This document shows positions 36,064 through 54,048 of a DNA stretch of 64,000 nt, piece by piece. The stretch is from assembly GCA_015099395.1 (NCBI GenBank), contig AP024096.1, positions 4,774,001 through 4,838,000 on the forward strand, given 5' to 3'. The position numbers were made by a program, and so were the translations under genes. Within the stretch, counting starts at the first letter, position 1. The number at the start of each line of letters is the position of its first letter. Source of the stretch: Ktedonobacteria bacterium brp13 (GTDB taxonomy: Bacteria > Chloroflexota > Ktedonobacteria > Ktedonobacterales > Ktedonobacteraceae). The notes below the pieces were generated by a model. The model was not told the DNA's origin. It saw only the letters and a list, made by a program, of their open reading frames with translations, and made no database searches.

Positions 36064-36640
36064 CAGGCCGATGGAGACAGATGGGATGCCATGACGAATG
36101 CATCACGTCGCTTGCCAATAAAGTTCACTATCGCCTGTAAAGATGCTATAATCCCTTGCCCCCCTCTTTGAGGGCTCACCTGGATAGGTTTTTTGGCCTA
36201 TCCAGGTGAGCTTCATAGAAGAAAATGCACACGAACATTCAGTATTATATATAAAGCATGTATTAAACTCATATATCACTATCACCCCGAAACTCGCCAA
36301 AAACTCGTCCCCCTCTCGGAGGGGGGAGATAGCTTTAGCTATCGGGGGGAGCCATCCTCGCCTTCTGCTCTCGATAACTATTCTACGCCAACCATCTCCC
36401 GTTCGGACGTAGATTTCGTCAGCGAGGATAACAGACGATAAAGGTGAGCGTGATAAAGAGCGTTTAATTCGAGATTATAACGTTATTCGAACATTTACTC
36501 CCCCCGATAGCTAAAGCTATCTCCCCCCTCAAAGAGGGGGACAAGGGCTTAATTGCACTATACAGGCAATAGTGAACGTTATTGGCAAGTGACATGACGC
36601 ATTTGTTATGGCGTCCCATCTGTCTCCATTGGCCTGGAAG
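36064..36640. repeat. Large mosaic inverted repeat, copy B
   Basis: The 35870-36924 gap holds no gene. The left end (CAGGCCGATGGAGACAGATG, 36064-36083) returns inverted near 36619-36637, with roughly 80-90 bp of matching terminal sequence (CATGACGAATGC, AAGTTCACTATCGCCTGT). Inside are two inverted arms built on CCCCTC/GAGGGG plus GATAGCTTTAGCTATC at about 36310-36350 and 36500-36541. The centre matches copy A (16 kb) in the opposite orientation. A separate hairpin interrupts the left arm at 36174. Confidence 0.88.
36174..36211. repeat. GCTCACC...GGTGAGC hairpin inside copy B
   Basis: A 15-bp perfect inverted repeat (GCTCACCTGGATAGG) around TTTTTTGG. It begins exactly where the left arm of copy B breaks off after CTCTTTGAGG, as if inserted or recombined there. 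Confidence 0.8.
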
Positions 36641-36793
36641 GCGGTTTCATGGCCTATTTCCAAAAAACCTATCCCGGTGAGCTCTTTGAGGGGGGACGGG
36701 TGTTTAGGTAGTTTTATGGTGATAGTGATGTATACAGTTATTTTATGAGATATGTATAATAATGGATAGTAGTATGTATCTCATTCGTTGAGT

Positions 36794-36829
36794 CTCACTG
36801 GGATAGGCAAAAAAACCTATCCCAGTGAG
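36794..36829. repeat. Second CTCACTGGGATAGG hairpin
   Basis: A 14-bp perfect inverted repeat around CAAAAAAA, near-identical to the 36174 hairpin. A further half copy is at about 36663-36683 and one near 15712. It lies before the end of the MFS gene at 36924. Confidence 0.8.
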
Positions 36830-36923
36830 CTTGCAAGCGGGAGGTGGCTTAGATCCTCACCATGCAGGTCAGCACCACGCAGATCCAGTCCATTGCGACG
36901 CCGCTGACTCTCATCACTCCAAA

Positions 36924-38216: not shown

Positions 38217-38436
38217 GTCCGTCGGTCTGTCGTCCCTTCTTCGTCTATTCAACAGATTGAATGGAGCGTAAGTATACCGAAGGCACAACCAAAAAACACC
38301 GTCCAAATGAACGTTGTCGAGCTCTTGACAAAAATGCTATAATTAAAATGAGAAACGGGTATCTTCGAAGGGAAGATGCAATTGCTATTCTACTATTTGT
38401 AAAGTAGCATGTCCCTCCCCTCTTATACTAACTGTC

Positions 38437-39345
38437 TTACACTGGCTGGTTCAGCCATTTCCCCTTACCACGGATGGTATGTACCTGCTGAAAACCGACT
38501 GACTCATACGCACGGCGAGCAGGAGTGCGCTCCACATTCGTCTCGACGATCGCGCTGGTGGCTCCGTGCTCTTTGAAACGACGGAGGATCTCCAGTAGAA
38601 GGATGCGCCCAATGCCACTCTGATGAAAACGCGGATGGACGCCGAGTGGCTCAATCTGTGCAATGCGGCGTTCGGGAACAAACCAGCCCACACAGAAGCC
38701 AGCTAATGAGCCATCGGGCGCGGTCACAACCAGATCCAACTCAGGTCGATATGGAGGAGTGTGTATCGTTCGCGCACGCCACTCTGGCGTCATGGAAGTG
38801 CTCTCGAAGGCCGCACGATGTACCTCGCTATATGCTGCAACTTCCTGTTCGCCTGCGAGGAGACGCAGCGTAAAGCCAGCAGGCAGTGTTGGCACAGGCG
38901 GAAGATTGGCAAGCGAGTGTTGCAGCAAGACATAGCGGTCCCCCTCTTCGTGCAGAAAGCCATGCGCTTCAACCAACTGTTGTCGCTCCAGATCATCATC
39001 ACGGAACTCTACCCAGTAGGGCAGCGGCCAACCCCGTTCCGCATCGCGCTCCCGAAAGCGTCCATCAGCCCAGGCAAAGAGCTGCGCTGCGACGTCCTGC
39101 GCCTCAGGACCAGGCAGGATAAAGAAGTCGAGAGCGGCCCAGTAGTATTGCCAGGCCGCAAAGCCGACAAGCTGCCTCTCCGAGTCTTCCCAGAAAGCAG
39201 CATCGCGTCCCTCGTTGATAGCAGGTGAACTGAGCCGCCAGGGGAGGTCAATCACGTGACGGCACGACAGGGGCATACGGAGGATAAGATCAAGAATACG
39301 AGGCATATCAGCCTCACTACGAAATGGGTGGCGAGTAAGAGTCAT
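38437..39345 (-). CDS. GNAT-family N-acetyltransferase
   Basis: The C-terminal half carries the acetyl-CoA motif LGVHPRFHQSGIGRILLLEILRRF (R/Q-x-x-G-x-G/I type) and NVERTPARRAYESVGFQQV. The N-terminal half (about 150 residues) looks like a degenerate second GNAT domain, as in tandem GNAT proteins such as mycothiol synthase-like enzymes. AAGGAGGG before ATG 39345 fixes the start, 33 bases inside the longest frame. It lies just downstream of the restriction operon's ygjP but is a separate function as far as seen. Confidence 0.85.
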   Translation of the reverse strand: MTLTRHPFRSEADMPRILDLILRMPLSCRHVIDLPWRLSSPAINEGRDAAFWEDSERQLVGFAAWQYYWAALDFFILPGPEAQDVAAQLFAWADGRFRERDAERGWPLPYWVEFRDDDLERQQLVEAHGFLHEEGDRYVLLQHSLANLPPVPTLPAGFTLRLLAGEQEVAAYSEVHRAAFESTSMTPEWRARTIHTPPYRPELDLVVTAPDGSLAGFCVGWFVPERRIAQIEPLGVHPRFHQSGIGRILLLEILRRFKEHGATSAIVETNVERTPARRAYESVGFQQVHTIRGKGKWLNQPV

Positions 39346-39387
39346 GATGCCCTCCTTAGCAGTGTATCGTATCGGCAAGCTTAGAAT

Positions 39388-40104
39388 TTAGTATTCCCAG
39401 GATGCGTGGCCCAGAGGTGCTCGATTCAGTTCCTCACGATAGTGTTGCCACAAAGGCATGAAGCTATTCATGTATGCAATGAAACGTTCGTTGTGATGGC
39501 GTTCGAGCAGGTGGATTAACTCGTGTACAACTATGTACTCGACGCAATGGACTGGTTTCTTGATCAACTCAAGATTCAACCAGATGCGGCCAGCTTTGAT
39601 ATTACAGGTACCCCATCTGGTTTTCATCTGTTTGACACCCCAGTCTGCTACCGTGACGCCAATCAGCGCTGCCCATTTATCAATCAGGGGGACAATCTCT
39701 GCTTTAAGCTGGCGACGATACCAGGTGATCAGGACACGCTCGCGCACTGCCGTACTGCTACCGGGCCGTACGCAGAGGTCCATAGTCTTGTTATTGCGCA
39801 GGCTCACTGATGGTGTGCCTTCCCGATAGATGACATTGAGCAGGTAACGATGGCCCTGGTAATAATGGCTCTCGCCGCTGACGAACTCACGGGCTGACTG
39901 ACGTTCCTGACCCGCAAATCGGGCTTGCTGATGCTTGATCCATGCAAGTTTGGAGATGGTAAAGAGGCGTACTGCCTCATCATTCACACGTAATGGTGCC
40001 GCCACCCGTACCCGACCATTTGGTGGATAGACAGCAAGATGGAGATTCTTGATATCTTTCCGAACCACATCCACTACAAAACCATTGACGGTGATCTGAT
40101 GCAT
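39388..40104 (-). CDS. YgjP/SprT-like zinc metallopeptidase of the type I RM operon
   Basis: The metal site VVHELIHLLERHHNERF (HExxH plus a downstream His) and the family block QMKTRWGTCNIKAGRIWLNLEL (KxRWGSC type) identify a DUF45/YgjP metallopeptidase, 238 residues. Its ATG lies one base after the hsdR stop (TGA-G-ATG), so it is translated with the operon. YgjP proteins are often the last gene of type I restriction operons; a role in controlling HsdR turnover is plausible but unproven. Confidence 0.9.
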   Translation of the reverse strand: MHQITVNGFVVDVVRKDIKNLHLAVYPPNGRVRVAAPLRVNDEAVRLFTISKLAWIKHQQARFAGQERQSAREFVSGESHYYQGHRYLLNVIYREGTPSVSLRNNKTMDLCVRPGSSTAVRERVLITWYRRQLKAEIVPLIDKWAALIGVTVADWGVKQMKTRWGTCNIKAGRIWLNLELIKKPVHCVEYIVVHELIHLLERHHNERFIAYMNSFMPLWQHYREELNRAPLGHASWEY

Positions 40105-40105
40105 C

Positions 40106-43100
40106 TCAATACTCGCTTTTTTGCTTATAGATAAGCTGGAAAATATCATTCTCCAGTTGTGCTAAATCCGCTTTTTGCAAGACTTTGCGGATCTCCAGAC
40201 GAATCTCTCGCTCTTTGAAGGGACTGCCACGCCAACTATCTTTCTTGATACGTTTGACTTCGGTATCCAGTACGCTGGCAATCTCATCATTCTTGCTACT
40301 TGTAGCATACTCCGCCAGTTTATCATAAATGGCACGCTTGCCCAGGGTGTTGATACCATCCGGGTAGGTTGTCTGGCTGCCTGGATTTTGCGCGTCGCTG
40401 GCGAGCTCTGCGATTTTTTTCAGATACTCTTTGTATTCCAGGGCTTGATCCTGACGCGCACGGATCAGGGCATCCAGGCGCGCAGACATCTTATCGTAGT
40501 AGCCTGTGTTCAGGGGACGCTCGTTGATGATGACTTTGCGCAGGTTGTTTTCGATGGTTTCTGCCATGGCCTTCTGGTTGCGAGCGATACCTTTGGGCAA
40601 TTTTGCCTCCAGCCCGTCGATGCCTTTCTCTACGATGAGTTGAATCAGTGAGATATCATCAAAGGCTGAGACGACTTCGCTCTCTTCGGCACGAATATAG
40701 GTGTCGATCAGGTAGCGCATCGCTGGCTCATAGACTTTGAGGTCAACGTTGTCACCACTGGCATTCTTGATCTCGGCGCTTACGTTTTCGTAACGGGCTA
40801 CTTCTTGCTTGATCTGTACAATTTCCTGCTCCGAGTAGCCAGCCTCTGGCAGGTCATTAGCGAGATTGGCAAAGGCGCGTATCAGGGATGCAGTGAGCTT
40901 GTAGAGCGTGATGCGCCTGGCTTCGTAGGCCTGCAAGGTCTCGTTGTCGGCTGTCCCATCGTTGCAGAAGTAGCGCATGTAGTCGAGTGTCTCCTGGGGC
41001 GGATCGACGGCTTCACAGAGGGTTTTGATGGCCTCACGGGCCTCGTCAAGCTTTTGACGTCCTTTTTCTATGCGATCTTGCAAGAGACCTTCTACGTCTT
41101 TCTTCTCATATCCCTCCAGTGCTTCCGAGGTGTAATCGTGGATCGAACCCTCGACACTTTTAAAGAGATCTTTATAGTCGACGATGTAGCCATACTCTTT
41201 ATCTTCACCGTCCAGTCGGTTGACGCGACAGATGGCTTGAAACAGTCCATGATCCTGCATCTTCTTGTCGATATACAGATAGGTGGCCGCTGGGGCGTCA
41301 AAGCCGGTTAAGAGCTTATCCACGACAATCAAGAGCTTCATCTGCCCTGGCTCTTCTATAAACTTCTTCTTGACCTCTTTTTCAAACTCTTCTGGCGATC
41401 TTCCGTTGAGCATCCTCTCGTAGATATCATACTGTCTCAGCTTCTCGGTTGGCCCTTCGCCTGACTCCTCGCTCTTGATGTCCGCGACGGTTGGCTTGTA
41501 TGAGGTGACGATGGCACATTTGTCGAAACCTTGTGCGAGAAAGAGTTCATACAGCTTGCAGGCTTGATAGATGCTACCTGACACCAGCATGGCGTTGCCA
41601 CGACCATTCTGAAGACGCTCCTTGAGTTCCATGTCAAGCAGGATATCTGCGACGATCTTTTCAAGGCGCGATTGTGAGCTGAGCACCTTTTGCATGGTAC
41701 CCCAGCGCTGCTTGAGTCTGGTCAATGCGGCTGGCTTGAGTCCTCTGGTCTTGGCCTCAAACCACTGATCAATCTTTTTCTGTGCAGTGATATTTTGATC
41801 GATGTCGCGCGCCTCATAGCGTAGATCTAGCACGACCTGATCGCGCACAGCCTCATCAAATTTATAGGTATGAATGTATGATCCGAAGGTCTCGATGCTG
41901 GTCTTCTTGTCATTTTTCAAGAGGGGGGTGCCCGTAAAGCCGATAAACATGGCGTTGGGCAAGATCTTCTTCATGGCATCGTGCAGCTCGCCAGATTGTG
42001 TACGATGACATTCATCGACAAAGACGTAGATGTCTCCTCTGGCCTTGAAACCAGTGGGCAGGCTGTCCTGAAGCTCTTTGATGAAATCCGCTGCTGTGCT
42101 CTCTTTCTTGCCAACGAATTTGTGGATGAGGGAGCAGATGAGCCAGGGAGTGGTGGCGTTCAACTGCGTGATGAGATCTTTGCCACTGTTGGTACGATAG
42201 ATCTCTTCCTCGACGCCTCTGAAGACCTTCTGGATCTGCTCGTCGAGTTCGGTACGATCGGTGATGATCAGGACACGTGCATCCGAGATATGCTCGCGTA
42301 GCCACTTGGCGAGCCAGACCATGGTTAAGCTCTTGCCGCTCCCCTGGCTATGCCAGATGATACCACCTTCGCGCTGACTCACACGTTGCTGGGCGGCCCG
42401 CACGCCGAAGTACTGGTTAGGACGGCAGAGCTTCCTGGTGCCGGCATCGAAGATAGTAAAATCGTGAATAATCTCTAACAAACGCTCTTTTGCGCAGAGT
42501 TGGAGTAGTGAACGATCCAATGGGCTCTCGATAGTACTCTCTTCTTTCCAGGTCAGATAATATTTTTCGGAAGTACCGGTCGTACCATAGCGCAGACCTT
42601 CGGTATCGTTGCCAGCCATGACCAGTTGGATCGTATTGAAGAACGACTTGATAAAGCGTGCGTTCTGGTTGCCCAGATTCTGGCGAATGCCCTCACTGAC
42701 AGAGACCACCGAGCTCTTGAGCTCCAGCACGCCCAGAGCGATACCATTGACGTAGAGCACTACGTCGGGCCGTTTATTGTTCTCGCCCTGGATGGAGACC
42801 TCCTCGGCGATCGCAAAGTCGTTCTTGTATGCAGCATCCCAATTGATCAGCCAGACGGTCTCAGTATTTTCGCCCACCTCGGTCTTTACCTTGACCCCAT
42901 AGCGCAACAGCGTATACACATCCTTATTGATGTCATAGAGGCTTCTGACCTGGTTGCCCACCACCTTATTAAACTCATATAAAGCTTTGGTGATCAGCGT
43001 ATCAGAGTAGCCTTGCTGCTCCTTGAGGAAGGTACGCAGAATAGCCTCTTCGACGTTACTGTTGTTCTGACGATACTGCCAGTTCCCCAGAGGGCGATAG

Positions 43101-43171
43101 CCCAACTGCTGCACGAATAACGCAAGCACACGATCCTGCGTGCTACGTTCTGGCTGACCAACGGTACTCAT
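40106..43171 (-). CDS. hsdR: Type I restriction enzyme, R subunit
   Basis: HsdR is the translocase-nuclease of type I systems. The N-terminal endonuclease motif is RPDVVLYVNGIALGVLELK (PD-ExK type, about 135-153). The helicase core has Walker A HSQGSGKS (about 275-283), DECH-box VDECHRTQSGELH (about 386) and FTGTPL. The C-terminal third is the long helical region that docks on the methylase. Length 1021 residues is normal. ATG lies 1 bp after hsdS stop. It is part of the hsdM-hsdS-hsdR-ygjP operon and looks intact. Confidence 0.97.
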   Translation of the reverse strand: MSTVGQPERSTQDRVLALFVQQLGYRPLGNWQYRQNNSNVEEAILRTFLKEQQGYSDTLITKALYEFNKVVGNQVRSLYDINKDVYTLLRYGVKVKTEVGENTETVWLINWDAAYKNDFAIAEEVSIQGENNKRPDVVLYVNGIALGVLELKSSVVSVSEGIRQNLGNQNARFIKSFFNTIQLVMAGNDTEGLRYGTTGTSEKYYLTWKEESTIESPLDRSLLQLCAKERLLEIIHDFTIFDAGTRKLCRPNQYFGVRAAQQRVSQREGGIIWHSQGSGKSLTMVWLAKWLREHISDARVLIITDRTELDEQIQKVFRGVEEEIYRTNSGKDLITQLNATTPWLICSLIHKFVGKKESTAADFIKELQDSLPTGFKARGDIYVFVDECHRTQSGELHDAMKKILPNAMFIGFTGTPLLKNDKKTSIETFGSYIHTYKFDEAVRDQVVLDLRYEARDIDQNITAQKKIDQWFEAKTRGLKPAALTRLKQRWGTMQKVLSSQSRLEKIVADILLDMELKERLQNGRGNAMLVSGSIYQACKLYELFLAQGFDKCAIVTSYKPTVADIKSEESGEGPTEKLRQYDIYERMLNGRSPEEFEKEVKKKFIEEPGQMKLLIVVDKLLTGFDAPAATYLYIDKKMQDHGLFQAICRVNRLDGEDKEYGYIVDYKDLFKSVEGSIHDYTSEALEGYEKKDVEGLLQDRIEKGRQKLDEAREAIKTLCEAVDPPQETLDYMRYFCNDGTADNETLQAYEARRITLYKLTASLIRAFANLANDLPEAGYSEQEIVQIKQEVARYENVSAEIKNASGDNVDLKVYEPAMRYLIDTYIRAEESEVVSAFDDISLIQLIVEKGIDGLEAKLPKGIARNQKAMAETIENNLRKVIINERPLNTGYYDKMSARLDALIRARQDQALEYKEYLKKIAELASDAQNPGSQTTYPDGINTLGKRAIYDKLAEYATSSKNDEIASVLDTEVKRIKKDSWRGSPFKEREIRLEIRKVLQKADLAQLENDIFQLIYKQKSEY

Positions 43172-43172
43172 A

Positions 43173-44507
43173 TTAGATTAACCTCGTCTTCCCTGTGAGT
43201 AGCTCCTGCATCATAGCATGCTTCAACATATGAGTCTTCTTACGCCTGTGCTCTAATGCGGTAATTTCAGCATCCATATCTGAAAGGACGTTGGCGATGG
43301 CTTGTTGTTCGGATTTAGTGGGAGGAATAGGAATTCGCGTATCTCTAACTTGTTTTAAACTGATTTGTGGATAGGCTTGACCTGTTGTTATCGAGTTGTA
43401 GTACTTTCTTAGCGCAGGTTGTGAAAGAAAATGGAAGACATAATTAGCATCTATACTACTATCAGTTATTCTGATTCTAGCAATGTGCTGATTAATATTC
43501 GCAATGCTAAAGCCATTACCTAAATAAATAACCCTACCAACATTTCCAGTAATGGTCATTAAAATGTCTCCAGCATGAACCTCGCCTCGCTTCAAAATAT
43601 TATGAGCTTCAGATGTTATAAACATTGACTGAGTAAGATCGAGTCCTTGCTCGGAAACACATTCACTTCTTAAAAAAAGGACACCATCATTTGCCCAGCT
43701 AAAACCATATGTTGTTGGTGTAGCACCTTTTGTAATAAAGGCCGATATAAGTCCTAGTGGCCTAGGTTCCCAATCCTCAGGTATGAACCCAATCTCTGTT
43801 TGCTTGTACCTGAGCTTTAGTTCGTCGCCGAATCCAGGCAATCGAGTCTTGCCAGTGAGAAGCCGCTGCATCGTTGTCTGCTTGATATCACGCTTCTTGG
43901 CGATGAGTTTGTCTAGGGATGTGATCAGGGCATCTACATCGCTTAAGGCGGTGGCAATGGCTTGTTGTTCAGACGTAGTAGGAGGAATGGGAATCCTTGT
44001 ATCTCTAACTTGTTTTAAGCTAATTTGTGGATAAGCCTGACCAGTTGTTATTGAGTTATAGTATTTCCTGATAGAAGGCTGTGAAAGGAAATGAAAAACA
44101 TAACCAGCAACTACATCACTATCAATTATTCTTATTCTAGCAATGTGCTGATTAATATTGGCCACTCCAAAGTCATTGCTTAGAGAAATAACCCTACCGA
44201 CATTACCCGTAATGGTGACTAGAATATCACCAGCATGAACCTCACCTCGCTTTAGCATATTATGTGCTTCAGCTGTTATAAACATTGACTGAGAAAGATC
44301 AAGCCCTTGTTCAGAAACACACTCACTTCGTAGAAAGAGAACACCGTCATTTACCCATCTAAAACCATATGTTGTTGGTGTAGCGCCTTTCGTGATAAAA
44401 GCAGACAAAGATCCCAGCGGTGTAGGTCTCCAATCCTCTGGGATATCTCCTAGCTCCATTCGTTTATATCCCTGTTTTTGATTAACATTATGTATTGTTG
44501 TTACCAT
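43173..44507 (-). CDS. hsdS: Type I RM specificity subunit with twin target-recognition domains
   Basis: HsdS normally has two different TRDs that read the two halves of a split DNA site. Here TRD1 (about 18-170) and TRD2 (about 245-397) are almost the same protein, about 85% identical by eye: both contain FITKGATPTTYGF, NDGVLFLRSECVSEQGLDL and TTGQAYPQISLKQVRDTRI. The conserved helical spacers (EQQAIATALSDVDALI and EQQAIANVLSDMDAEI) follow each. Its start overlaps the hsdM end by 7 bp. If both TRDs bind the same half-site, the recognition sequence should be palindromic. Confidence 0.95.
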   Translation of the reverse strand: MVTTIHNVNQKQGYKRMELGDIPEDWRPTPLGSLSAFITKGATPTTYGFRWVNDGVLFLRSECVSEQGLDLSQSMFITAEAHNMLKRGEVHAGDILVTITGNVGRVISLSNDFGVANINQHIARIRIIDSDVVAGYVFHFLSQPSIRKYYNSITTGQAYPQISLKQVRDTRIPIPPTTSEQQAIATALSDVDALITSLDKLIAKKRDIKQTTMQRLLTGKTRLPGFGDELKLRYKQTEIGFIPEDWEPRPLGLISAFITKGATPTTYGFSWANDGVLFLRSECVSEQGLDLTQSMFITSEAHNILKRGEVHAGDILMTITGNVGRVIYLGNGFSIANINQHIARIRITDSSIDANYVFHFLSQPALRKYYNSITTGQAYPQISLKQVRDTRIPIPPTKSEQQAIANVLSDMDAEITALEHRRKKTHMLKHAMMQELLTGKTRLI

Positions 44508-46882
44508 ACCATCCCCATCTTTGTTAAATGCTCATCCACTTTGCTGCTCAAAATCTCAACATCTTCAGTAAGCTTAGGCAATGGTATAGAATAGCGCTCT
44601 GCAAGCTCTTTGATGCGTCCCGTCAAGGCCTGGGAGATGCGATTAAGCTCGCTCTGGATATCAGCGGCAAGGGTGGTGAGCCACTTGTCTTCGATGACGA
44701 GAGTTTTGACTTCGTCTTCGCTGGGCACTTTGTATTTAGCAGTGACTTTGGCATCGAGGACTTTTTGCGCTGTCTTAATCTTTCGATTGGCTTCTGCTTC
44801 CTGCTCAAGCAGGTCAAGATATCTATTGAGCATGGCAAGCTCATCTTCGGTGTCTGGTTCGCCAAATAGGTCTTGCTGGCGAGCTTTAATGCTGGTTTTG
44901 GTAATCTTGCCCTTCTCGTTTTTGCCCTCTTCGAGCAGGCCACCTTCGCCACCATGTTCTTCATCCAGCTCTTGCAGCTGGCTACTGATGGCTTCTCTAG
45001 CCGCTTCTAGCGCCTCGATCTGCTGTTGCTCGGCGGCAAAGTAGCGCTTGATGATCAGCTGCGACGGGATCAGATCACTGTTGGCCTTCCAGCCATCCAG
45101 GGCGATCATGTAGACATCATCTTGCATGATGTCGCCCCAGTAGCTCATCAGGTGCTGGTAGACATCGTATTTATCGATCAGGCTAGCAGCGGCAAATGTC
45201 TGGAGGATATCTTCAGAAAGTTCCTCGATCAGTGGTTTGGGATGGCTACCGATGGCGATATTCTGCAGGGTTGGCGTATGCTTCGTCCGCCATTGCTCAA
45301 AGAGCTCTGTTATAGCCTGCGTATAGGTGACGAATTCAGGATGTGTCAGGATGGTCTGTTTGATCTGAGCGGACTCGACGCAAAGCTGGCTATAACCGGT
45401 ACGAGTGCCATCTGTAAAGAGGTGTACCTTGAGGGTTGGAAAAACCTGCCAGTAGTCATCTAACGCCAGGATATCGCGGTCAGGGATACCACCCAGCAGG
45501 TGCGCCTGGATGTCATGGATATCTTCGGCTTCTGTACTGTCAATGTACCGTGGAATATTGAGGTTATAGTCGTTACTCTCGATTTCAGCGACACTGACCA
45601 TACGCGAATACTTTGGTAGCTCGATCTGGCGATTAAACACATCTGCAATCTTATGGATATCTTGATGGCGCAAGCGGTTCTTGTTGCCATCCTTCACAAA
45701 GCCCTTACTGGCATCCAGCATAAAGATACCGGTACGGCTAGCAGCGTTTTCCTTATCCAGCACGATGATGCAGGCCGGGATACCAGTACCGTAGAACAGA
45801 TTGGCGGGGAGTCCAATGATGCCCTTGATATAGCCTCTGCGAATAATCTTCTCACGGATCGTGGCCTCAGCATTGCCACGGAAGAGGACACCATGTGGTA
45901 GAATCACCGCCCCCTTGCCAGTACTCTTGAGCGAGTGGAGGATGTGCAGCAGAAAAGCATAGTCACCATTCTTGGCCGGTGGAACGCCTAGCTCAAAGCG
46001 TCCATACAGATCCTCGAACGGATCAAAGCCATTGCTCCAGGATTTATTCGAGAAGGGCGGATTGGCAACGGCAAAATCAAATTTCTTCAGATGCGAACTG
46101 GCCGGGTTATTCTCATCTTCATCGCGCTTAAAATAAGGACTGGAGAGTGAATTGTCATGCCAGATAGTAGCGGTAGGATGGTTGTGCAGGAACATATTCA
46201 TTCTGGCCAATGAAAAGGTCGCATTATCCATCTCTTGCCCATAGATGGTCACTCCACCGGTCGGGGCCTCATCGGCAGCCTTGAGTAGTAGCGAACCGGA
46301 GCCGCAAGTTGGATCGTAGATGGTCTGGCTCTGACTTGTGACCTTGCTGGTACCAATGATCTTCGCAATGATACGGGAGACTTCAGCGGGAGTGTAGAAT
46401 TGCCCCTTACTTTTGCCCGATTCGGTCGCAAAGTGGCGCATCAGATACTCATAGGCATCGCCCAACAGATCATCACCGTCAGCACGATTCTTACTGAAAT
46501 CCAGCGCTGGATTCTCAAAGATCGCCACCAGGTTGGAGAGGCGCTCCTGCATCTCTCTGCCCTTGCCTAGCTTGTCACTATCATTGAAATCCGCAACATC
46601 GATCACACCCTTCAGTTCGTTACCCTCAGCGAGCTTAGAGATAATCTTATTCATCTTATCGCCAATCTCGATATTCCCTTTGAGCGCAACCATATCTTTA
46701 AAGCTACCGCCCTCAGGGATCTCGATCAGCGCATCGGGTTGGCCCGCATATTTATCAGAGACATATTTGACGAAGAGGAGGACGAGCACATAATCCTTAT
46801 ACTGCGAGGCATCCATCCCGCCACGGAGTTCATCGCAACTCTTCCATAACGAACTATACAGTTCACTTTTCTTAATAGCCAT
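44501..46882 (-). CDS. hsdM: Type I RM methyltransferase subunit
   Basis: HsdM makes N6-adenine in the target site with HsdS. N-terminal helical domain KSELYSSLWKSCDELRGGMD, SAM motif DPTCGSGSLLLKA (about 190), catalytic NPPF in AVANPPFSNKSW (about 272). At 793 residues it is much longer than E. coli HsdM (529). The extra ~290 residues (about 500-793) are charged helical coiled coil, and this form is known in several phyla. The first gene of the operon; stop overlaps hsdS start. No promoter clearly seen. Confidence 0.96.
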   Translation of the reverse strand: MAIKKSELYSSLWKSCDELRGGMDASQYKDYVLVLLFVKYVSDKYAGQPDALIEIPEGGSFKDMVALKGNIEIGDKMNKIISKLAEGNELKGVIDVADFNDSDKLGKGREMQERLSNLVAIFENPALDFSKNRADGDDLLGDAYEYLMRHFATESGKSKGQFYTPAEVSRIIAKIIGTSKVTSQSQTIYDPTCGSGSLLLKAADEAPTGGVTIYGQEMDNATFSLARMNMFLHNHPTATIWHDNSLSSPYFKRDEDENNPASSHLKKFDFAVANPPFSNKSWSNGFDPFEDLYGRFELGVPPAKNGDYAFLLHILHSLKSTGKGAVILPHGVLFRGNAEATIREKIIRRGYIKGIIGLPANLFYGTGIPACIIVLDKENAASRTGIFMLDASKGFVKDGNKNRLRHQDIHKIADVFNRQIELPKYSRMVSVAEIESNDYNLNIPRYIDSTEAEDIHDIQAHLLGGIPDRDILALDDYWQVFPTLKVHLFTDGTRTGYSQLCVESAQIKQTILTHPEFVTYTQAITELFEQWRTKHTPTLQNIAIGSHPKPLIEELSEDILQTFAAASLIDKYDVYQHLMSYWGDIMQDDVYMIALDGWKANSDLIPSQLIIKRYFAAEQQQIEALEAAREAISSQLQELDEEHGGEGGLLEEGKNEKGKITKTSIKARQQDLFGEPDTEDELAMLNRYLDLLEQEAEANRKIKTAQKVLDAKVTAKYKVPSEDEVKTLVIEDKWLTTLAADIQSELNRISQALTGRIKELAERYSIPLPKLTEDVEILSSKVDEHLTKMGMVW

Positions 46883-46990
46883 CGAAGATGTTTTCCATCC
46901 ACTTTCTAAGGTGCCGCAGTGCCGAAATAAATAGAGAGTTTATCATAGCATTGTTGAGCTCATCCTGGCACACCGGTAGAACGACACTAA

Positions 46991-47129
46991 GATATTGTTG
47001 GCGAATGACACAACCAATAGAATCAGGGTTGTTTTAACCAAAAACAGACCAGATATAACCTGCAAAAAGCATCAAAAGCAATCTAGTTTTGGCCCCATTT
47101 CACTCTCTGTGTCATTCGCCAACAATATC
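46991..47129. mobile_element. 139-bp MITE with 21-bp perfect TIRs and ACTAA target duplication
   Basis: The ends 46991-47011 and 47109-47129 are exact inverted copies (GATATTGTTGGCGAATGACA + C). ACTAA flanks both sides at 46986-46990 and 47130-47134, a 5-bp target duplication. The interior has no coding frame. This is a non-autonomous element moved by a transposase elsewhere in the genome; the family is not assigned from TIRs alone. Confidence 0.85.
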
Positions 47130-47130
47130 A

Positions 47131-47479
47131 CTAACTGGTGAAGTTTTTTAAACAACCTTCACAATAAAACCTCTGGTACCAAAAAGTAGGAATTCACAGG
47201 AAAGGATGGTAATACCCCTGCCTCCCTCTTTGAGGGGGGATGTCGCCGCAGCGACAGGGGGGAGTAGATTCTCGAATTACGCTACTCACGATACCTATAC
47301 ATCAAAAACGCTTTTTATCTACTAAGTCCATATCATCTTCTGTTGGACGATTGCTAACTTTCTACTCCCCCCTGTCGCTAAGGCGACTTTCCCCCCTCAA
47401 AGAGGGAGGCAGGCATTAGCAGCATCATCTAATTTTTCGAGCATTTAACCGTTTTTCTTTGCCCAATTTCACCAGTTAA
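47131..47479. repeat. Mosaic inverted repeat, copy C, with 15-bp outer ends
   Basis: Inner arms at 47218-47271 and about 47360-47412 are inverted copies (CTGCCTCCCTCTTTGAGG, then GTCGC...GCGAC and GGGGGGAGTAGA), the same plan as copies A and B. Outer ends 47131-47145 and 47465-47479 match as inverted repeats at 13 of 15 bases (TAACTGGTGAA core). No gene occupies 46883-47674. Confidence 0.8.
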
Positions 47480-47674
47480 TGCGGCTCTACCTGGCACACC
47501 GACACTCCATAGTATTGTGTGTATAGCCAGGAACTATGAGAAGATTGCTTAAAGTGTAGCGTAAGAGTAGCTATTGATGCAAGTAATACCTATTGCTTAG
47601 GACAGTTGTATTACAATCATGAGGGAAAACGCAGAAAAGGAATTCGAGAAAGTTATGCTTATAATGATGTGCAT

Positions 47675-48235
47675 TTATGGTTTATCTTCAATAAGCTTGC
47701 CTAGTAGCTTGAGCGTCACACCGAGCGTCAAAATAACGGCTGCGTTGACACCTAATTCAATCATAGCACTGGTAAATTCTGAGCCCTGGATATGTTCTAC
47801 GGACAGCCTGGCACCGATGGAAAGAATACCTCGTGTAGAGGAGACAATGCCGATGAATAGAAAGGGCCGGAGCGAGGTTGCACGGGCTTTGAGGTAGTGG
47901 ATGACTGTTCCTAAGACTTCCATGATGATCAGAACAAGTAGCAGGTCAGAGACAAATTGTATGACGGATGTTGCGATGCCTGCCGGATTTGATTGGATGA
48001 TTGCGGCAATGAGCAGGGTACCAAAATCCCAAAAGCTATAGAGCAGCCCACAAAATGCTCCGATTATGAAACAAATACCAACGATTGAATACACAATGCT
48101 ATCCATTCGCTCGAATATATGTTCTGAAAAGAAGGCAATACGATCATCGTCTGCTTCGCGTATTTTTTTTTGTGGTAGGGATGGTTGCAGCGTGCACTTG
48201 TTTTCTTCTGCACTATCACTAAACTGTTCGTCCAT
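47675..48235 (-). CDS. PsiE-like membrane protein
   Basis: The phosphate-starvation-inducible PsiE pattern is present: LLLVLIIMEVLGTVIHYLKARATSLRPFLFIGIVSSTRGILSIGARLS, within a four-helix protein of 186 residues. The N-terminal 45 residues are polar. Function of PsiE proteins is not established. ATG at 48235 is preceded by AAGGAATT. Single minus-strand gene between the restriction operon and the ATPase-HNH pair; no sign that it belongs to defence. Confidence 0.82.
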   Translation of the reverse strand: MDEQFSDSAEENKCTLQPSLPQKKIREADDDRIAFFSEHIFERMDSIVYSIVGICFIIGAFCGLLYSFWDFGTLLIAAIIQSNPAGIATSVIQFVSDLLLVLIIMEVLGTVIHYLKARATSLRPFLFIGIVSSTRGILSIGARLSVEHIQGSEFTSAMIELGVNAAVILTLGVTLKLLGKLIEDKP

Positions 48236-48684
48236 AATTCCTTTGTAGGACCATTATAATAGCGGTCCTGTATAGTTTTTTTGTCAGATACTTATGGTTG
48301 ACAGATACGTTCCTTAAAAAGTCATGATACATTGCGATGGAAGGACATTCTCTACACATAAAAGAACATGGTTCTTACAATATCACATCGCACTACACTT
48401 ATGCTAACAATTTGTCTGGACCCTGGCTTACCAATCTCTTGACAACCATGAGAAAAAACACAGAAATGAATACCATACACATGTCCATGCATCTCTTCTA
48501 CTTCCAACCTCAATATTATACATAATATCTTAATAATATAGCTTGCTCATAGTAAAGATGCTATACTGTAAATACGGCGTATAGATAATCAAAATGCATT
48601 GATGATAAAAGAAACCAGGAAATTGCTCATGATATTCATCCAATTTTTAGAGAATTTCGAGAAAGTTATAGAGGTTAAAAGAAA

Positions 48685-50631
48685 GTGTATTTTAATGCGA
48701 AACAAATTGAACGCTCACTTCAGCACCTAGACGAACTTCATCCATTCTTTGGCACAATTTTTCTGGCACTCCAGGAAGCTAATTTACCAGAGGGTCATGC
48801 CATACCAATCAGCTTCATTGCTATTCTAGGGGCATTTTTAGAAAAATATTATAGACCTACGTCTAAATACGGCGGCTTCTACACGCCGTTCAAAACATCT
48901 AATAAACACCAGCGATGGAACACCTACCAATATGCCAACTCGCTGCGCAGAGTTGCCGTTGATACCTTTTCTGATGTCACACTCCATCCAAATAGCCGTG
49001 ACTGGGGGTGGAAAAAAGGCTATATTGATATCCTGCACCAAGAGCATCTATCCGAGACAGTCCCTACGCTTCACCTTGCAATCTGGCTTTTCCGCAACAG
49101 GAACTGGTCAGGAGAGACCACGCCAGAAAACATTATCCAGACCTTTTTCGAAGAGTTTCACATTGGTGCTGAAGAACAAAAACTTTTCAATCCAACACTA
49201 ACTGGCAACAATAGATTCCCGTTTGGGGAATCATTATGGCAAGAGCAACCAATAAGTGAAGAAACACTCTTAGCGATTATCGGAGTACCGCCCAATGTAC
49301 AGCTAAAACCAAAGAGGAGACAGCCAACCCTCTTCGATAATACGGGGCTTGAAGAATATGGGGCAAAACTACAACATCTAACGATGACAGAGATCGGCCC
49401 TGCTGATGAATTCGAACTTGATTGCGCAACAAGAATCAATGCAATTACAGGTGATAATGCCTTAGGAAAAACATTTCTGCTTGAATGCGCCTGGTGGGCG
49501 CTGACAAACACATGGGCCTCTAAATATCCAGCACACCCAAAAAAAACAGCTCAAAAGCCAGCCATAGCATTCCAGATAGGCAAAGAGGGTCAACCAGGAA
49601 AAACACAGACAGTGCCCTATGACTGGAAATCTCAAAGCTGGTCCACCACCAAAAAGCGAAATATATTGCCAGGACTCTCCGTCTTCGCGCAAGCAGATGG
49701 TTCCTTTGCAGTATGGGACCCAGCAAAGATCGATAGTTTAGCCCAATATACAGATGACACCGAAGCTTTTTTGAATATCAGTCGTGAAGACGTATGGGAT
49801 GGGGTAATAGAGACCATAAAAGATAAAAAAGTAGTAAGGTGTAGGGGGCTCATAGAAGATTGGATCACATGGCAAACATCTAAATCCGCAGCCTTCGATG
49901 ATTTTCGCGCAGCATTGAAAGCGTTATCCCCTCATCCCCAGGATATCCTCAAACCTGGAGAGCCAACCCGGATTCCTGAACTCGATGTCAGACTTGTCCC
50001 TACAATAGAATTCTCATATGGGTCAGTACCAGTGATGCTTTGCTCGGCAGGTATTAAAAGAATTGTTGCATTAGCCTATATTCTTGTCTGGGCATGGCAT
50101 GAACATGTAGAGCAAGCGCAACTTACTCGCACAGATCCACAGCGCAGTATTGTGCTCATTATCGATGAGATGGAGGCTCACCTTCATCCATTCTGGCAAC
50201 GTGCTATTGTTCCGGCCATTATCGCTGTGATACACGCGCTATCAAAAGAGACAAGCACGCAAATTATCATTGCAACTCATTCTCCTCTTGTATTAGCCTC
50301 GATGGAACCTGTCTTCGACGAAGACCAGGATAAGCTTTTCCATCTGCGTGTAGATGAAGACGATCGATCAGTGCAGCTAGAAGAGATGCCCTTTGTCAAG
50401 CGAGGGCGGATAGATCGCTGGCTGACATCTGACATCTTCGGTCTTGCACAACCAAGATCCCAGGAAGCTGAAGTTGCTATTCAAGAAGCAAATGCTATTC
50501 AACTAGAAGATAATCCCGCCAAAGAACAAGTGCAAACAATATCAGATACATTAGTAAGACTTCTGGCCCAGGATGATGAATACTGGCCACTATGGACATA
50601 TTTTGCGAAAGAAAGAGGCGTAATCCTTTGA
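48685..50631 (+). CDS. ABC/OLD-type ATPase with novel N-terminal region (defence candidate, ATPase component)
   Basis: A 648-residue ATPase. Residues 1-250 are an unrecognised globular region (YFNAKQIERSLQHLDELHPF ... DVTLHPNSRDWGWKKGYID). Walker A is GDNALGKT (256-263), an ABC-like signature CSAGIKR at 453-459, Walker B LIIDEMEAHLHPFW (D494, E495), and H-loop IATHSPLV (His532). A ~100-residue tail follows. This is the SMC/OLD/PtuA class of DNA-linked ATPases. GTG at 48685 has GAGG upstream. The stop overlaps the HNH gene start by one base, so the two are made together. It lies beside a type I RM operon. The N-terminal domain sets it apart from PtuA, which begins with Walker A. Confidence 0.85.
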   Translation: MYFNAKQIERSLQHLDELHPFFGTIFLALQEANLPEGHAIPISFIAILGAFLEKYYRPTSKYGGFYTPFKTSNKHQRWNTYQYANSLRRVAVDTFSDVTLHPNSRDWGWKKGYIDILHQEHLSETVPTLHLAIWLFRNRNWSGETTPENIIQTFFEEFHIGAEEQKLFNPTLTGNNRFPFGESLWQEQPISEETLLAIIGVPPNVQLKPKRRQPTLFDNTGLEEYGAKLQHLTMTEIGPADEFELDCATRINAITGDNALGKTFLLECAWWALTNTWASKYPAHPKKTAQKPAIAFQIGKEGQPGKTQTVPYDWKSQSWSTTKKRNILPGLSVFAQADGSFAVWDPAKIDSLAQYTDDTEAFLNISREDVWDGVIETIKDKKVVRCRGLIEDWITWQTSKSAAFDDFRAALKALSPHPQDILKPGEPTRIPELDVRLVPTIEFSYGSVPVMLCSAGIKRIVALAYILVWAWHEHVEQAQLTRTDPQRSIVLIIDEMEAHLHPFWQRAIVPAIIAVIHALSKETSTQIIIATHSPLVLASMEPVFDEDQDKLFHLRVDEDDRSVQLEEMPFVKRGRIDRWLTSDIFGLAQPRSQEAEVAIQEANAIQLEDNPAKEQVQTISDTLVRLLAQDDEYWPLWTYFAKERGVIL

Positions 50632-51245
50632 TGCCAGTTACATTGAAGCCTGAACCTCACGATTTTTATGAGAAGGTTCAAAAGATGGGTGAAGAACTTT
50701 TAGCCGCTAATCCCAACGTAAAAGGCTCGCAACTTCAACCATATTGGAGAAAAATCAAATTCGATCTTTATGATGCCTATTCTGGCATATGTGCATATAC
50801 ATGCCATTGGATCACAAGAGATACGGGCTCGATTACAGTCGATCACTTTAAACCAAAAGACAAATATCCACAAGATGCATATCAATGGGCTAATTATCGC
50901 CTGGCTTGTGGAACATTAAATGGGCGAAAGGGTATAAATAAAGAAGTCCTCGATCCATTCACTCTACAGGAAGGATGGTTCGCACTACACTTCCCTTCTC
51001 TTCAACTCACTCACAATAAAGAGCTTGATCAGAGTATCATAGTAAGTATTAAGCAAACCATTAAAATATTGAAACTTAACGATGATACTTGTATTGGTGG
51101 TAGAAGGGATTGGCTAGAACCCTATTTACAAGGAGAATACGGTATAGATCACTTGTGTAAAAAGGCACCTTTTCTCACCTATGAGTTGAAAAGGCAGGGA
51201 TTACAAGACATTAACCTCCCTATCTGGGACGCCTTTAAAAAGTAA
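50631..51245 (+). CDS. HNH endonuclease, partner of the ATPase (PtuB-like, degenerate zinc site)
   Basis: 204 residues. The HNH core is SGICAYTCHWITRDTGSITVDHFKPK with D71-H72, then WANYRLACGTLNGRKG with N88 and N97/K100. Usual TIGR02646/PtuB proteins have CaYC and AC..CN; here the first knuckle is CxxxC (C54, C58) and the second retains only C93, so zinc binding looks altered while the catalytic His/Asn are kept. The ATG shares one base with the ATPase stop (TGATG). The pair likely senses or cuts foreign nucleic acid; direct evidence is lacking. Confidence 0.85.
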   Translation: MPVTLKPEPHDFYEKVQKMGEELLAANPNVKGSQLQPYWRKIKFDLYDAYSGICAYTCHWITRDTGSITVDHFKPKDKYPQDAYQWANYRLACGTLNGRKGINKEVLDPFTLQEGWFALHFPSLQLTHNKELDQSIIVSIKQTIKILKLNDDTCIGGRRDWLEPYLQGEYGIDHLCKKAPFLTYELKRQGLQDINLPIWDAFKK

Positions 51246-51341
51246 GGCAATATGTACTAATACTTATCAAAAGAATGGACAGATCACAGAAACTTCTATA
51301 TGCTTTATACTCAATAAAAACCAACACTGGGGAGAATATCT

Positions 51342-52079
51342 ATGTTCGAGAGACGAACTGAAGAAGCTGGACTCAATAGTTGGCCCGCGCTCCAACAACT
51401 CCTTTTCGATGGCTGGCTCTTACGTTTCGCTCAGGGCTATACCAAACGAGCAAACTCGGTGACGCCTCTCTATCCATCGTTGCTGCCTGCCGAAGAAAAG
51501 ATTGCCTGGTGCGAACATCTTTACAAGGAGAAACAGCTACCGGCTATCTTTCGCCTCCTTTCATTTTCAGAGGAAAGCCAGCAACTGGATCAACTGCTGG
51601 CGCAACGCAGCTACTCCGCCCTTGATCGCACGCTGGTCTGGTCGACCAGGCTGTCCTCCGCGTGGGCAACTGAGAACCCGGCATTGAGAGCCATTTCTCT
51701 GGCAGACTGGCTCCCAATCTATCGTCAATTTAGCGATCGCTTCAGCGAGTTACAGCATGTGCATCGCGAGCTCCTGGAACGGATTTCGTCTCCGCTCATC
51801 TATGCCGCGCTCTACCAGCAGGGTACTCCCGTTGCATGTGGTCTGGGCGTGCTGGAACACGAAACCTTCGGGCTCTTCGATATCGTGACAGACCCCGAAC
51901 AGCGCAGGAAAGGTTATGGCACGCAACTGACCACGAGCATGCTTGACTGGGGTAAGCAACACGGTGCGCAGTATGCATATCTGCAAGTCGTGGACACAAA
52001 CCTGACCGCTCAGCAGATGTATGCGAAACTGGGCTTCCAGGAGAGCTATCAGTATTGGTATCGTATACAAGCGTCATAA
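51342..52079 (+). CDS. GNAT-family N-acetyltransferase
   Basis: The start FERRTEEAGLNSWPALQQLLFDGWLLRFAQGYTKRANSV is characteristic of a GNAT subgroup with an E..LNaWP..q...DGWllR..GyTkRaNSv N-terminus. The acetyl-CoA loop is IVTDPEQRRKGYGTQLTTSML, with AQQMYAKLGFQESYQYWYR at the end. 245 residues. GGGGAGAA precedes the ATG. It is about 100 bp after the HNH gene with its own leader, so it is probably not part of the defence pair. Substrate unknown. Confidence 0.9.
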   Translation: MFERRTEEAGLNSWPALQQLLFDGWLLRFAQGYTKRANSVTPLYPSLLPAEEKIAWCEHLYKEKQLPAIFRLLSFSEESQQLDQLLAQRSYSALDRTLVWSTRLSSAWATENPALRAISLADWLPIYRQFSDRFSELQHVHRELLERISSPLIYAALYQQGTPVACGLGVLEHETFGLFDIVTDPEQRRKGYGTQLTTSMLDWGKQHGAQYAYLQVVDTNLTAQQMYAKLGFQESYQYWYRIQAS

Positions 52080-52124
52080 ACAAGCCAGGCAGCCCGCAGC
52101 CTTTTTGAAGAGGAATTGTATAGC

Positions 52125-52155
52125 GGCCTGCTACCCCTAGAATGAGTAGCAGGCC
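52125..52155 (+). terminator. Hairpin after the GNAT gene
   Basis: GGCCTGCTAC and its exact complement flank 11 bases, followed by ACCTCTTTG. Probable terminator with a weak U-tract. Confidence 0.6.
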
Positions 52156-52222
52156 ACCTCTTTGTATAGAGGAACGCATAATCATTATGCAGATATGTAC
52201 ATATAGTATGCGTTTATTTTGT

Positions 52223-52299
52223 GTTACTACTTATCCGAAAACCTGCGTGTGCGGGCACTAGCGACGCCAGTCGCGTTGGGTTTCGGAATAAGATCTTAG
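52223..52299. repeat. Palindromic repeat family, copy 2
   Basis: Close match to copy 1 near 20.8 kb (TTACTACTTATCCG, GCGACGCCAGTCGCGTTGG, TTTCGGAATAAGAT). The stop codon of the minus-strand DUF4288 gene lies in its right end. Confidence 0.88.
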
Positions 52300-52742
52300 T
52301 GGTCTTGCCTGGGATTCTGGATGATGCGCATGACTTCGTCCATTACATCTTTGGCGATATAATTAGGTGCAGAGGTCTCGCTTTCAACGCTCTGGAAGAC
52401 ACCAAGTTCGCCTTTGGTGGGCAGGAGTTCCTGGATCTCCTCTTCGGTGAGGTTCTCCATCTCCTCATAGGCGATCTCAGCCCCATCCTCAAGGTCATCC
52501 ATAATAACATTGAGCTCACTGAGACCACGGAAGGTGATAGTAACGGCCTGGCCATCCGTGTTCTCATAGGTCATGTTCGCCTCCTCGCCTCTGGCTATCG
52601 CCTTATCATATGCCTCTTCTGGGGACTGCGCATGGATGAGTACGAGGTTGTTATGTACTACGTTGCTGCTGGTACCCTCTACTTTGATCTCCTCTACGAT
52701 CTCTGCCAGATACCACCTGGCTTCTTCTGGGATATATGCCAT
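52296..52742 (-). CDS. DUF4288 domain protein
   Basis: The domain pattern WYLAEIVEEIKVEG ... VVHNNLVLIHAQSPEEAYDKAIARGEE ... FRGLSELNVIMDDLEDGAEIAYEE matches DUF4288, small single-domain proteins of unknown role. ATG at 52742 is preceded by GGAG with a 7-base spacer; the frame extends 36 bases upstream without a ribosome site. 148 residues. The last codon and stop sit in the palindromic repeat at 52223-52299, so the C-terminus may have been altered when the repeat inserted. Confidence 0.82.
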   Translation of the reverse strand: MAYIPEEARWYLAEIVEEIKVEGTSSNVVHNNLVLIHAQSPEEAYDKAIARGEEANMTYENTDGQAVTITFRGLSELNVIMDDLEDGAEIAYEEMENLTEEEIQELLPTKGELGVFQSVESETSAPNYIAKDVMDEVMRIIQNPRQDH

Positions 52743-53022
52743 TAGGAGGCTCCTCTCTCTCAACGCTCCAGACGTCATGTAGCATGCAACCTAACCTATC
52801 GCACATGACAGCCTTCTCTATCTCTTTATCCTATTTACCCCTGACGACTATCATAAATATGGTCACACGCTCTCTTACCCTCAATTATATACAACATTAC
52901 AAGGGACTGCCCACTCACAGAAGGTTACGAGCGGTTTTCCGCTGTTATCCAGCATCTTCGACAATAAGTTCAGAGACAATCTTCCCCGAAAGCAAGGGAC
53001 AGTCTGGAAGGGGCGATACTAT

Positions 53023-53053
53023 GTAAGCTGAGGCTTTGACGCTTCAGCTTACA
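53023..53053. repeat. Hairpin between DUF4288 and GNAT genes
   Basis: GTAAGCTGA and TCAGCTTAC pair around a short GC-rich loop with one mismatch. It lies about 30 bp beyond the stop of the minus-strand GNAT gene. The rest of 52743-53083 has no gene. Confidence 0.5.
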
Positions 53054-53083
53054 CGTCCTTATAACGTTCTTACACGTAGAGCA

Positions 53084-53551
53084 TCAGGTAAGATCCTTAA
53101 TGAGATGCAGTTCATGGTCGTAGGGAGTAATCCCACGACCATCGGGCAGATAGCCAAGGTAAGGATAGAGGCGGTTCGCCGCCGCGTACTCGGCTGATTG
53201 TACCACAGAGATACCGATCATAATTTTCCCATGCTGCACCGCATGCTGTTCCACGGCCTGGAGCAGTGCAGTCCCCACACCTTGATGCTGATACAACTCA
53301 ATCACATTCAGATCAACGATCTCCGGGATACGTCGTATACGAAAATATTCATAGCCTGATTGCCAGATCAGCGTCGTATATCCGACGACCAGTCCTCGAT
53401 CATGAGCAACCAGGATCATCCGTTCACCACGCAACTGCTCTTGCCAATAGCGCTCAAATAGTCCACGTGGTCGCTGCCAGGTCGAGAAAGAATCCACCAT
53501 CGCATCAATATCCTGCGACCCCATTATGTTAATCGTGACGTGAGAAGACAT
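53084..53551 (-). CDS. GNAT-family N-acetyltransferase
   Basis: The acetyl-CoA motif is VDLNVIELYQHQGVGTALLQAVEQHAV, followed by the terminal NRLYPYLGYLPDGRGI typical of small GNATs. 155 residues from ATG 53551, which has GGGGG six bases upstream; the longest frame extends to 53605 without a ribosome site. Its start lies inside the end of the preceding membrane-protein frame, so it is the last gene of a minus-strand cluster from 55.6 kb. Substrate unknown. Confidence 0.88.
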   Translation of the reverse strand: MSSHVTINIMGSQDIDAMVDSFSTWQRPRGLFERYWQEQLRGERMILVAHDRGLVVGYTTLIWQSGYEYFRIRRIPEIVDLNVIELYQHQGVGTALLQAVEQHAVQHGKIMIGISVVQSAEYAAANRLYPYLGYLPDGRGITPYDHELHLIKDLT

Positions 53552-53893
53552 GTGGCCCCCAAATTCCACAGATAAGTATACCAGCGCAGAGTGCCATACC
53601 AGCACCCCAATAATATCTGTGAGTCAGATCGACAAGGCCAAACATCAAAAGACTACAACTAAAAAGTACACGCGGAACAAGCACTGCTCGCTGCGATAAC
53701 CACGGCATTTCCAACATCCACGATATCCACAACATCCACGATATCCACAACATCCACGATATCCCACCTTCCTCCCCATCCTCTCTCGCTCATACTTCCA
53801 CGCCCCCAGTTCATGTTGACCCTGTCCATTGCCCCACCTGAACACCATATCTACGAGTAACAATAACACGAACGTTACCACAAACCACGCCAC
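53529..53893 (-). pseudogene. Small membrane protein, probably frameshifted in a tandem repeat
   Basis: Two overlapping frames together look like one protein. The 5' frame starts at GTG 53893 with a membrane helix (AWFVVTFVLLLLVDMVFRWGNG); the 3' frame contributes two further helices (RVLFSCSLLMFGLVDL and WGAGMALCAGILICGIWG) and ends HVFSRHD. They switch in an 18-bp tandem repeat (53713-53766) where both frames encode nonsense-like GYRGCC or ISWMLW repeats. A slipped-strand indel is the simplest reading; programmed frameshifting or two tiny genes are alternatives. Confidence 0.5.
53713..53766. repeat. Three 18-bp tandem repeats
   Basis: Units AACATCCACGATATCCAC at 53713-53730, 53731-53748 and 53749-53766 (last copy imperfect). 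Likely unstable in copy number. Confidence 0.9.
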
Positions 53894-54048
53894 AAATTCG
53901 CCAGATCTTGCATTACTGCTAGCACCGCACCAAGCAATGCCGTTCCGATACCAATTCCACGCCTGATATCAGGGCTACGTTTCACTAGCACGCAGGCACC
54001 AAAGGAAAAACCAGACAGAAAAGTCCTGGCAGCACCAATAAAAGCCAT
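53875..54048 (-). CDS. 57-residue membrane protein
   Basis: ATG at 54048 lies 35 bp after the stop of the upstream propeller gene, with GAAGGG before it. The product MAFIGAARTFLSGFSFGACV continues with a basic loop VKRSPDIRR and a second hydrophobic helix (GIGIGTALLGAVLAVM), ending NLWRGLW. It overlaps the next frame's GTG start by about 19 bp, suggesting coupled translation. No family recognised. Confidence 0.55.
   Translation of the reverse strand: MAFIGAARTFLSGFSFGACVLVKRSPDIRRGIGIGTALLGAVLAVMQDLANLWRGLW

Follow-up and report, generated by a model that had tools for sequence, protein, structure and literature searches.

A Septu type I gene pair in a Ktedonobacteria genome with a long-form PtuA whose front domain may serve in DNA recognition

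A stretch of 64,000 nucleotides (the window) from the 8.88-Mb genome of Ktedonobacteria bacterium brp13 carries an overlapping ATPase-nuclease gene pair that is a Septu type I system by membership and a new layout variant of it, the pairing of an ABC ATPase with an HNH nuclease being itself already published. The ATPase, PtuA, starts with a front domain of about 205 residues. Long forms of PtuA with this domain make up one clade among the loci compared, a DNA methyltransferase gene directly precedes ptuA in two of the six long-form loci, and the front domain is homologous to the N-terminus of one McrB-like protein. The explanation that we favour, and to which we give about an even chance, is that the complex keeps its nuclease idle until nucleic acid is recognised, with the front domain as the recognition part, probably for DNA. 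The nearest named relative of the host in the comparison was Tengunoibacter tsumagoiensis (Chloroflexota). The features of the pair and of the adjoining operon, in window coordinates, are the following.

48685..50631, plus strand: ptuA, long form, an ABC/OLD-type ATPase of 648 aa with a GTG start; matches PDLC00270 (9.8e-189 over residues 1-647) and AAA_21 (1.2e-16)
48685..49299, plus strand: front domain of PtuA, residues 1 to about 205, modelled as largely helical; without Pfam, PDB or fold match
49369..50628, plus strand: ABC ATPase core of PtuA, common to short PtuA relatives without the front domain
49450..49473, plus strand: Walker A of PtuA, GDNALGKT, residues 256-263
50044..50061, plus strand: ABC signature of PtuA, SAGIKR, residues 454-459
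50149..50169, plus strand: Walker B of PtuA with the catalytic Glu, IVLIIDE, residues 489-495
50278..50280, plus strand: switch histidine of PtuA, H532
50631..51245, plus strand: ptuB, an HNH nuclease of 204 aa that begins at the last base of the ptuA stop; matches PDLC00348 (4.2e-65)
50790..50921, plus strand: HNH motif of PtuB, C54 to N97 (DH 71-72, N88, N97); each expected zinc pair is short of one Cys
39388..46882, minus strand: type I RM operon with a YgjP-like metallopeptidase, a neighbour outside the pair
44501-46882, minus strand: hsdM, full-length
43173-44507, minus strand: hsdS, full-length
40106-43171, minus strand: hsdR, full-length
39388-40149, minus strand: YgjP-like metallopeptidase

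The original prediction had described two genes overlapping by one base beside a type I RM operon, and both points held. Each ORF was found where it had been placed, and in TGATG at 50631 the ptuA stop TGA and the ptuB ATG have one base in common. The open frame of ptuA amounts to 650 aa and opens about two codons before the GTG start. The RM operon, with all three hsd genes full-length, lies upstream on the opposite strand at 1.8 kb from ptuA, with hsdM divergent and a PsiE-like gene in between. The G+C content of the pair is 43.5%, against 50.2% for the window, which is compatible with horizontal gain and is no proof of it.

The pair is Septu type I by database because full-length models match both genes: PDLC00270 (PtuA) is covered over profile positions 1-626 of 627, and the adjoining HNH gene matches PDLC00348 (PtuB), with Walker A and B and the H-N residues intact. 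The predicted Septu-like pairing of an ABC/OLD ATPase with an HNH nuclease was thereby borne out. The further proposal of a new Septu type or a separate system finds no support by name, since the front domain is already covered by an existing PADLOC model of PtuA. Taken alone, the front domain matches PDLC00270 at 3.4e-36 and the next model at 0.022, and the N-terminal region accordingly does match a known PtuA subtype. The roughly 250 N-terminal residues that had been called unrecognised are so for Pfam, which gave no match over residues 1 to about 205, but not for PADLOC. The window pair resembles Septu type I in its full-length model matches, its ATPase-HNH order, its overlapping genes and an H-to-N distance of 16; it differs in the front domain, in the missing zinc-pair cysteines and in its distance from the PtuA of solved structure. 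Likeness to solved structures is weak: the strongest match (E 5e-6), with a retron ATPase, covers the final third of PtuA, and 8ee4, the PtuA of solved structure, matched at E 1e-4 across some 100 residues.

Retron type I-A / Septu type II systems (Ec78, Ec83) likewise combine a PtuA-like ATPase with an HNH effector. Unlike the window pair, they have a reverse transcriptase and an msr-msd: no reverse transcriptase was found among the eight genes scanned around the pair, and there was no Rfam match in window positions 38000-54000. The NCBIfam retron models NF041760 (1.9e-14) and NF041761 (6.7e-10) both scored far below cut-off on the pair.

The ABC ATPase motif set of PtuA is complete, from Walker A through S454-A-G456 and Walker B to the switch histidine. 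The Walker A Lys is residue 262. In the tested E. coli EcB88 PtuA, Walker A lies near the N-terminus, at K43 (PMC13096335, in excerpt). The tested Septu examples have their own Walker A N-terminally, unlike the window PtuA, and this layout lies outside the PADLOC definition. One database label, PtuA1, covers proteins of differing layout.

The front domain gave no match among PDB sequences and no useful match in PHROGs. An AlphaFold2 model built from five sequences reached a pLDDT of 69.5 and a pTM of 0.73, against a pLDDT of 39 from two sequences. Fold search with the better model returned no significant match in PDB or BFVD, and DNA binding by the domain for this reason stays a prediction. 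The five-row alignment behind model and profile, A8, excludes the genus-mate locus L006. The front region is genuine coding sequence under constraint: it is 54-58% identical in two relatives, and its dN/dS of about 0.16-0.18 against L006 indicates purifying selection. It changes faster than the ATPase core, with 58 versus 70% identity to L006. DUF4007 (BREX type 4 / BrxA-like) was tried as the front domain and rejected at an hhalign probability of 0.2%. In PMC open-access full texts, outside which most subscription journals lie, no paper describing the front domain was found.

Sequence search found intact long PtuA in 3 of 400 genomes of the phylum. A front-domain profile matched four of the 400, namely these three and a relic in G265, and the A8 profile matched five, relic included, the one new genome being G329 (E 8.9e-8). 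Three IMG/VR contigs carry further long forms, which makes the six long-form loci the window, L003, L006, L084, L085 and L086. Short PtuAB relatives, from Myxococcota, proteobacterial and cyanobacterial plasmids and proviruses, have the same ATPase core (34-42% identity among the aligned rows) and the same HNH type; unlike the window PtuA, the Myxococcota and plasmid forms are without the front domain. In Myxococcota, 29 places matching the PtuA model were found in 22 of 282 genomes; none of the 29 starts before profile position 200, so the front domain is absent from every one. Plasmid relatives, also without it, start near residue 229. The front-domain profile gave no match in 245 Myxococcota genomes, in a search that had no positive control there. 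Viral scans with the window protein alone, the first N-domain profile or A1 as query gave no match, further viral scans gave only loci already known or no match, and there was no match in phage genome records or, at DNA level, in E. coli genomes.

A tree was built from ATPase cores with the front domain excluded. It holds 38 of the 44 candidate loci, a motif filter having left out L036, L044, L047, L053, L059 and L065, and L089 was excluded as a twin of L088. The six long forms fall on one side of a branch (support 100/99) that was present in all 200 bootstrap trees, and none of 500 label shuffles gave a value as low. One gain of the front domain is the simplest reading, which is unproven because the tree is unrooted.

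Two of the six long-form loci, L084 and L085, have a gene for a TSPPY DNA methyltransferase immediately before the long ptuA, the distance between the two genes being 0 and 10 bases, respectively (METHYLTRANSFERASES). Both enzymes match PF01555 (6.7e-39 and 2.6e-43) and are 59% identical to each other, and the TSPPY motif suggests N4-cytosine methylation. Next upstream of the methyltransferase in L084 comes an HTH_3 regulator gene, and a serine recombinase-like ORF, read by eye, is also found upstream. There is no methyltransferase directly upstream of ptuA in the window, L003, L006 or L086, and a search at E 1e-5 gave no relative of the L084 enzyme in the window's own genome (G000) or in G124, G293 and G265. 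A methyltransferase gene of its own, as an RM system has, is seen beside the pair in L084 and L085, and none stands beside the pair in the window. When flanks were scanned for two motifs, a methyltransferase-like ORF was seen in 4/6 long-form and 1/38 short-form loci; this excess is a hint and no test, because the flanks were of unequal length (most short forms having 1.5 kb) and because the scan misses the PglX-like ORF of L012. The long-form four include the window, by its hsdM at 1.8 kb, and G124 (L033), by an ORF 1.2 kb beyond ptuB. The G124 ORF has a TIR-like start when read by eye. PMC open-access full texts, a set that leaves most subscription journals outside, yielded no paper on a methyltransferase-PtuA-PtuB operon.

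In G329, the new match falls on the N-terminus of a protein of 607 aa that also has an AAA+ part. Against the front-domain profile this N-terminus scored 31.0 bits, the best of 200 shuffles reaching 2.9, and hhalign gave 95.2% over 125 columns. Its gene is the last in the following row.

L126:4010-9299 (G329), minus strand: methyltransferase gene, 531-aa gene and McrB-like gene with the front domain, in a row

The methyltransferase, encoded upstream on the same strand, matches PF01555 (6.1e-38) and is 28-30% identical to the L084 and L085 enzymes over about 210 residues. The 531-aa partner gave no informative Pfam match; a PD-(D/E)XK-like stretch was seen in it by eye. The AAA part matches Pfam weakly (AAA_5, E 0.017). 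Its relatives were matched in 181 plasmid records, and two annotated ones were examined: in a Chlorohelix record an EVE-domain relative is encoded near a DUF2357 (McrC) gene, and in a Mycobacteroides record an AAA relative is encoded near a DUF2357 gene, together with a methyltransferase gene. The G329 pair is called McrBC-like because of these two records, and the McrB-like assignment draws on weak Pfam matches, on relatives and on motifs read by eye. The row is possibly a methyltransferase-linked McrBC system. According to excerpts of the CoCoNuTs paper (PMC11090510), type IV enzymes like McrBC have a dedicated specificity domain, and predicted methyltransferases go with some clades of McrBC, a subject deferred there to a later publication. 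Homology of the front domain to an McrB-like N-terminus was seen in this one protein only, and no PtuB accompanies it. The G329 system resembles the window pair in its related front domain, and a TSPPY methyltransferase is encoded upstream; systems of this kind differ in having an AAA+ engine and another partner, where the window has an ABC ATPase and an HNH nuclease. The built-in sensor domain of the original prediction gains indirect support from the single six-locus clade, the upstream methyltransferase in two loci and the McrB-like N-terminus.

In the favoured explanation, PtuA and PtuB would act as a complex, listed for Septu as 6:2 in part of a review (PMC12948488), in which the ATPase holds the nuclease idle. 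Recognition of nucleic acid from a phage or plasmid would lead to an ATP-driven change that frees the HNH nuclease, and PtuB would cut, which would make the pair a phage defence. The front domain, placed in PtuA where McrB has its specificity domain, would do the recognising, most likely of DNA and probably of its sequence or methylation state. In both the methyltransferase-PtuA-PtuB arrangement and that of a methyltransferase with an McrB-like AAA+ protein and its partner, the methyltransferase would mark self DNA, so that in L084 and L085 it would protect the host. The window's lineage, in which no methyltransferase of this family was found, would have something else in its place or need none: here the front domain may read foreign DNA directly, or it may read the marks of another methyltransferase, for example the neighbouring type I enzyme.

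A bolder form of this explanation is possible, though short of probable: the front domain would be a portable DNA-recognition module that works with a TSPPY methyltransferase and has been built into two unrelated engines, those of Septu and of McrBC-like systems, the window copy would be a modification-reading descendant that has lost the methyltransferase, and long-form Septu would be an RM system built on a Septu effector. The methyltransferase-ptuA loci seen number two and the McrB-like carriers one. What triggers Septu, and how the host is spared, are largely open questions in the field. If the shared front domain supplies recognition, the trigger could be tested by the swap or deletion of one domain, and restriction systems and Septu would exchange recognition parts.

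A somewhat unlikely alternative is that the pair is an ordinary Septu in which the front domain is structural or autoinhibitory, stabilising the PtuA oligomer or keeping PtuB idle, with no part in DNA recognition. The PtuAB of the Ec83 retron-Septu is kept idle by msDNA (PMC12948488, in excerpt). With no reverse transcriptase or Rfam match found around the window pair, something else must restrain its nuclease, and the front domain could do so. Short forms, if functional, manage without the domain, which also fits a structural or autoinhibitory role. But such a role leaves the methyltransferase linkage unexplained, and the presence of the domain in an McrB-like protein without PtuB would need another reason.

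The zinc site of canonical PtuB consists of four cysteines, arranged as two CxxC pairs. In the window PtuB, Cys is absent at C54+3 and at C93+3, and the catalytic H72 and N88 are intact. The loss of two of four zinc ligands with His/Asn kept had been predicted and was confirmed as such, but it is clade-wide: Cys at first-Cys+3 is kept in 0/38 HNH partners, in long and short forms alike, and the loss says nothing special about the window's copy. In six loci (L010, L047, L049, L054, L059 and L086) the zinc-site pattern had caught a preceding Cys or a Trp further along, and when these rows were read by eye the second Cys was absent too. For 22bv, only the first CxxC was visible in the comparison. 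The spacing of the catalytic residues equals that of H75-N91 in the tested EcB88 PtuB, also 16 (excerpt of PMC13096335).

It is unlikely, though worth weighing, that the HNH partner cuts host tRNA instead of DNA, giving abortive infection rather than DNA restriction. The PtuAB of Septu EcB88 and of retron-Eco7 cut or deplete tRNA-Tyr (PMC13096335 and PMC11555353, both in excerpt), and the missing zinc cysteine, which distinguishes the clade, also counts in favour. The Septu of E. coli ATCC 25922, however, is described as targeting nicked DNA (part of PMC11555353), and a DNA target is in keeping with the methyltransferases linked to two long forms.

All 44 loci were covered in a search for the HNH partner, and an HNH ORF follows ptuA in 38 of them; of the six without one, L085 ends at the ptuA stop. 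Homologues found mainly outside defence and without the HNH partner would have spoken against the original prediction, and this is not the picture obtained: the partner is kept in these 38 loci, and the settings are often, not always, those of defence. The names PglX, PglZ, pheST, TIR, recombinase and PD-(D/E)XK stretch are what we take ORFs read by eye to be. In an Aeromonas caviae record (L012:565-7957), a short PtuAB pair has a PglX-like gene on one side and a PglZ-like gene on the other, as though it had entered a BREX operon. OLD-ABC plus HNH dyads, the same domain pairing as in the window, occur in BREX loci as backup effectors (PMC12839542, in excerpt). No front domain is mentioned for them in that excerpt, and the window pair lies outside any BREX locus.

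Quite improbable is a guard of restriction like PARIS (AriA-AriB), which would sense a phage anti-restriction protein or failure of the neighbouring RM and kill the cell, perhaps by tRNA cutting: the adjoining type I RM operon, the Aeromonas pair within a PglX-PglZ operon, the methyltransferase-like ORF with a TIR-like start near the G124 pair, the BREX backup dyads and a related ATPase (AriA being the best PADLOC match of the window PtuA not named PtuA, 3.3e-19) all suit it, but the PARIS partner is a TOPRIM protein where the window has HNH, defence genes cluster anyway, and the long form of L003 stands beside pheST with no recognised defence gene near.

Several observations on individual loci were also made. 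The Tengunoibacter pair (L003:5291-8588) has pheST nearby, and the roughly 6 kb flanking it on each side contain no recognised defence gene. The G265 relic (L016:1237-1743, minus strand) joins roughly the first 46 residues of long PtuA to the C-terminal half of PtuB, looks like an internal deletion and is divergent to pheS, like the intact pair of L003. In the genus-mate G124 (L006:3437-3500), ptuB is apparently frameshifted just past its start, through sequencing error or decay. Two IMG/VR contigs, L087 and L091, have short PtuAB among phage structural-like genes (by eye), like provirus cargo.

In an empty-site comparison within the genus, the two flanks of the window pair were found far apart or on separate contigs in relatives. 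An element of 75-82 bases at about 52222-52303 recurs in some 40 close copies (88-100% identical) across its own genome, and a genus-mate gave a single weak match. A repeat region at about 36055-36845 has well over 100 matches in its own genome, on both strands and at up to 98% identity.
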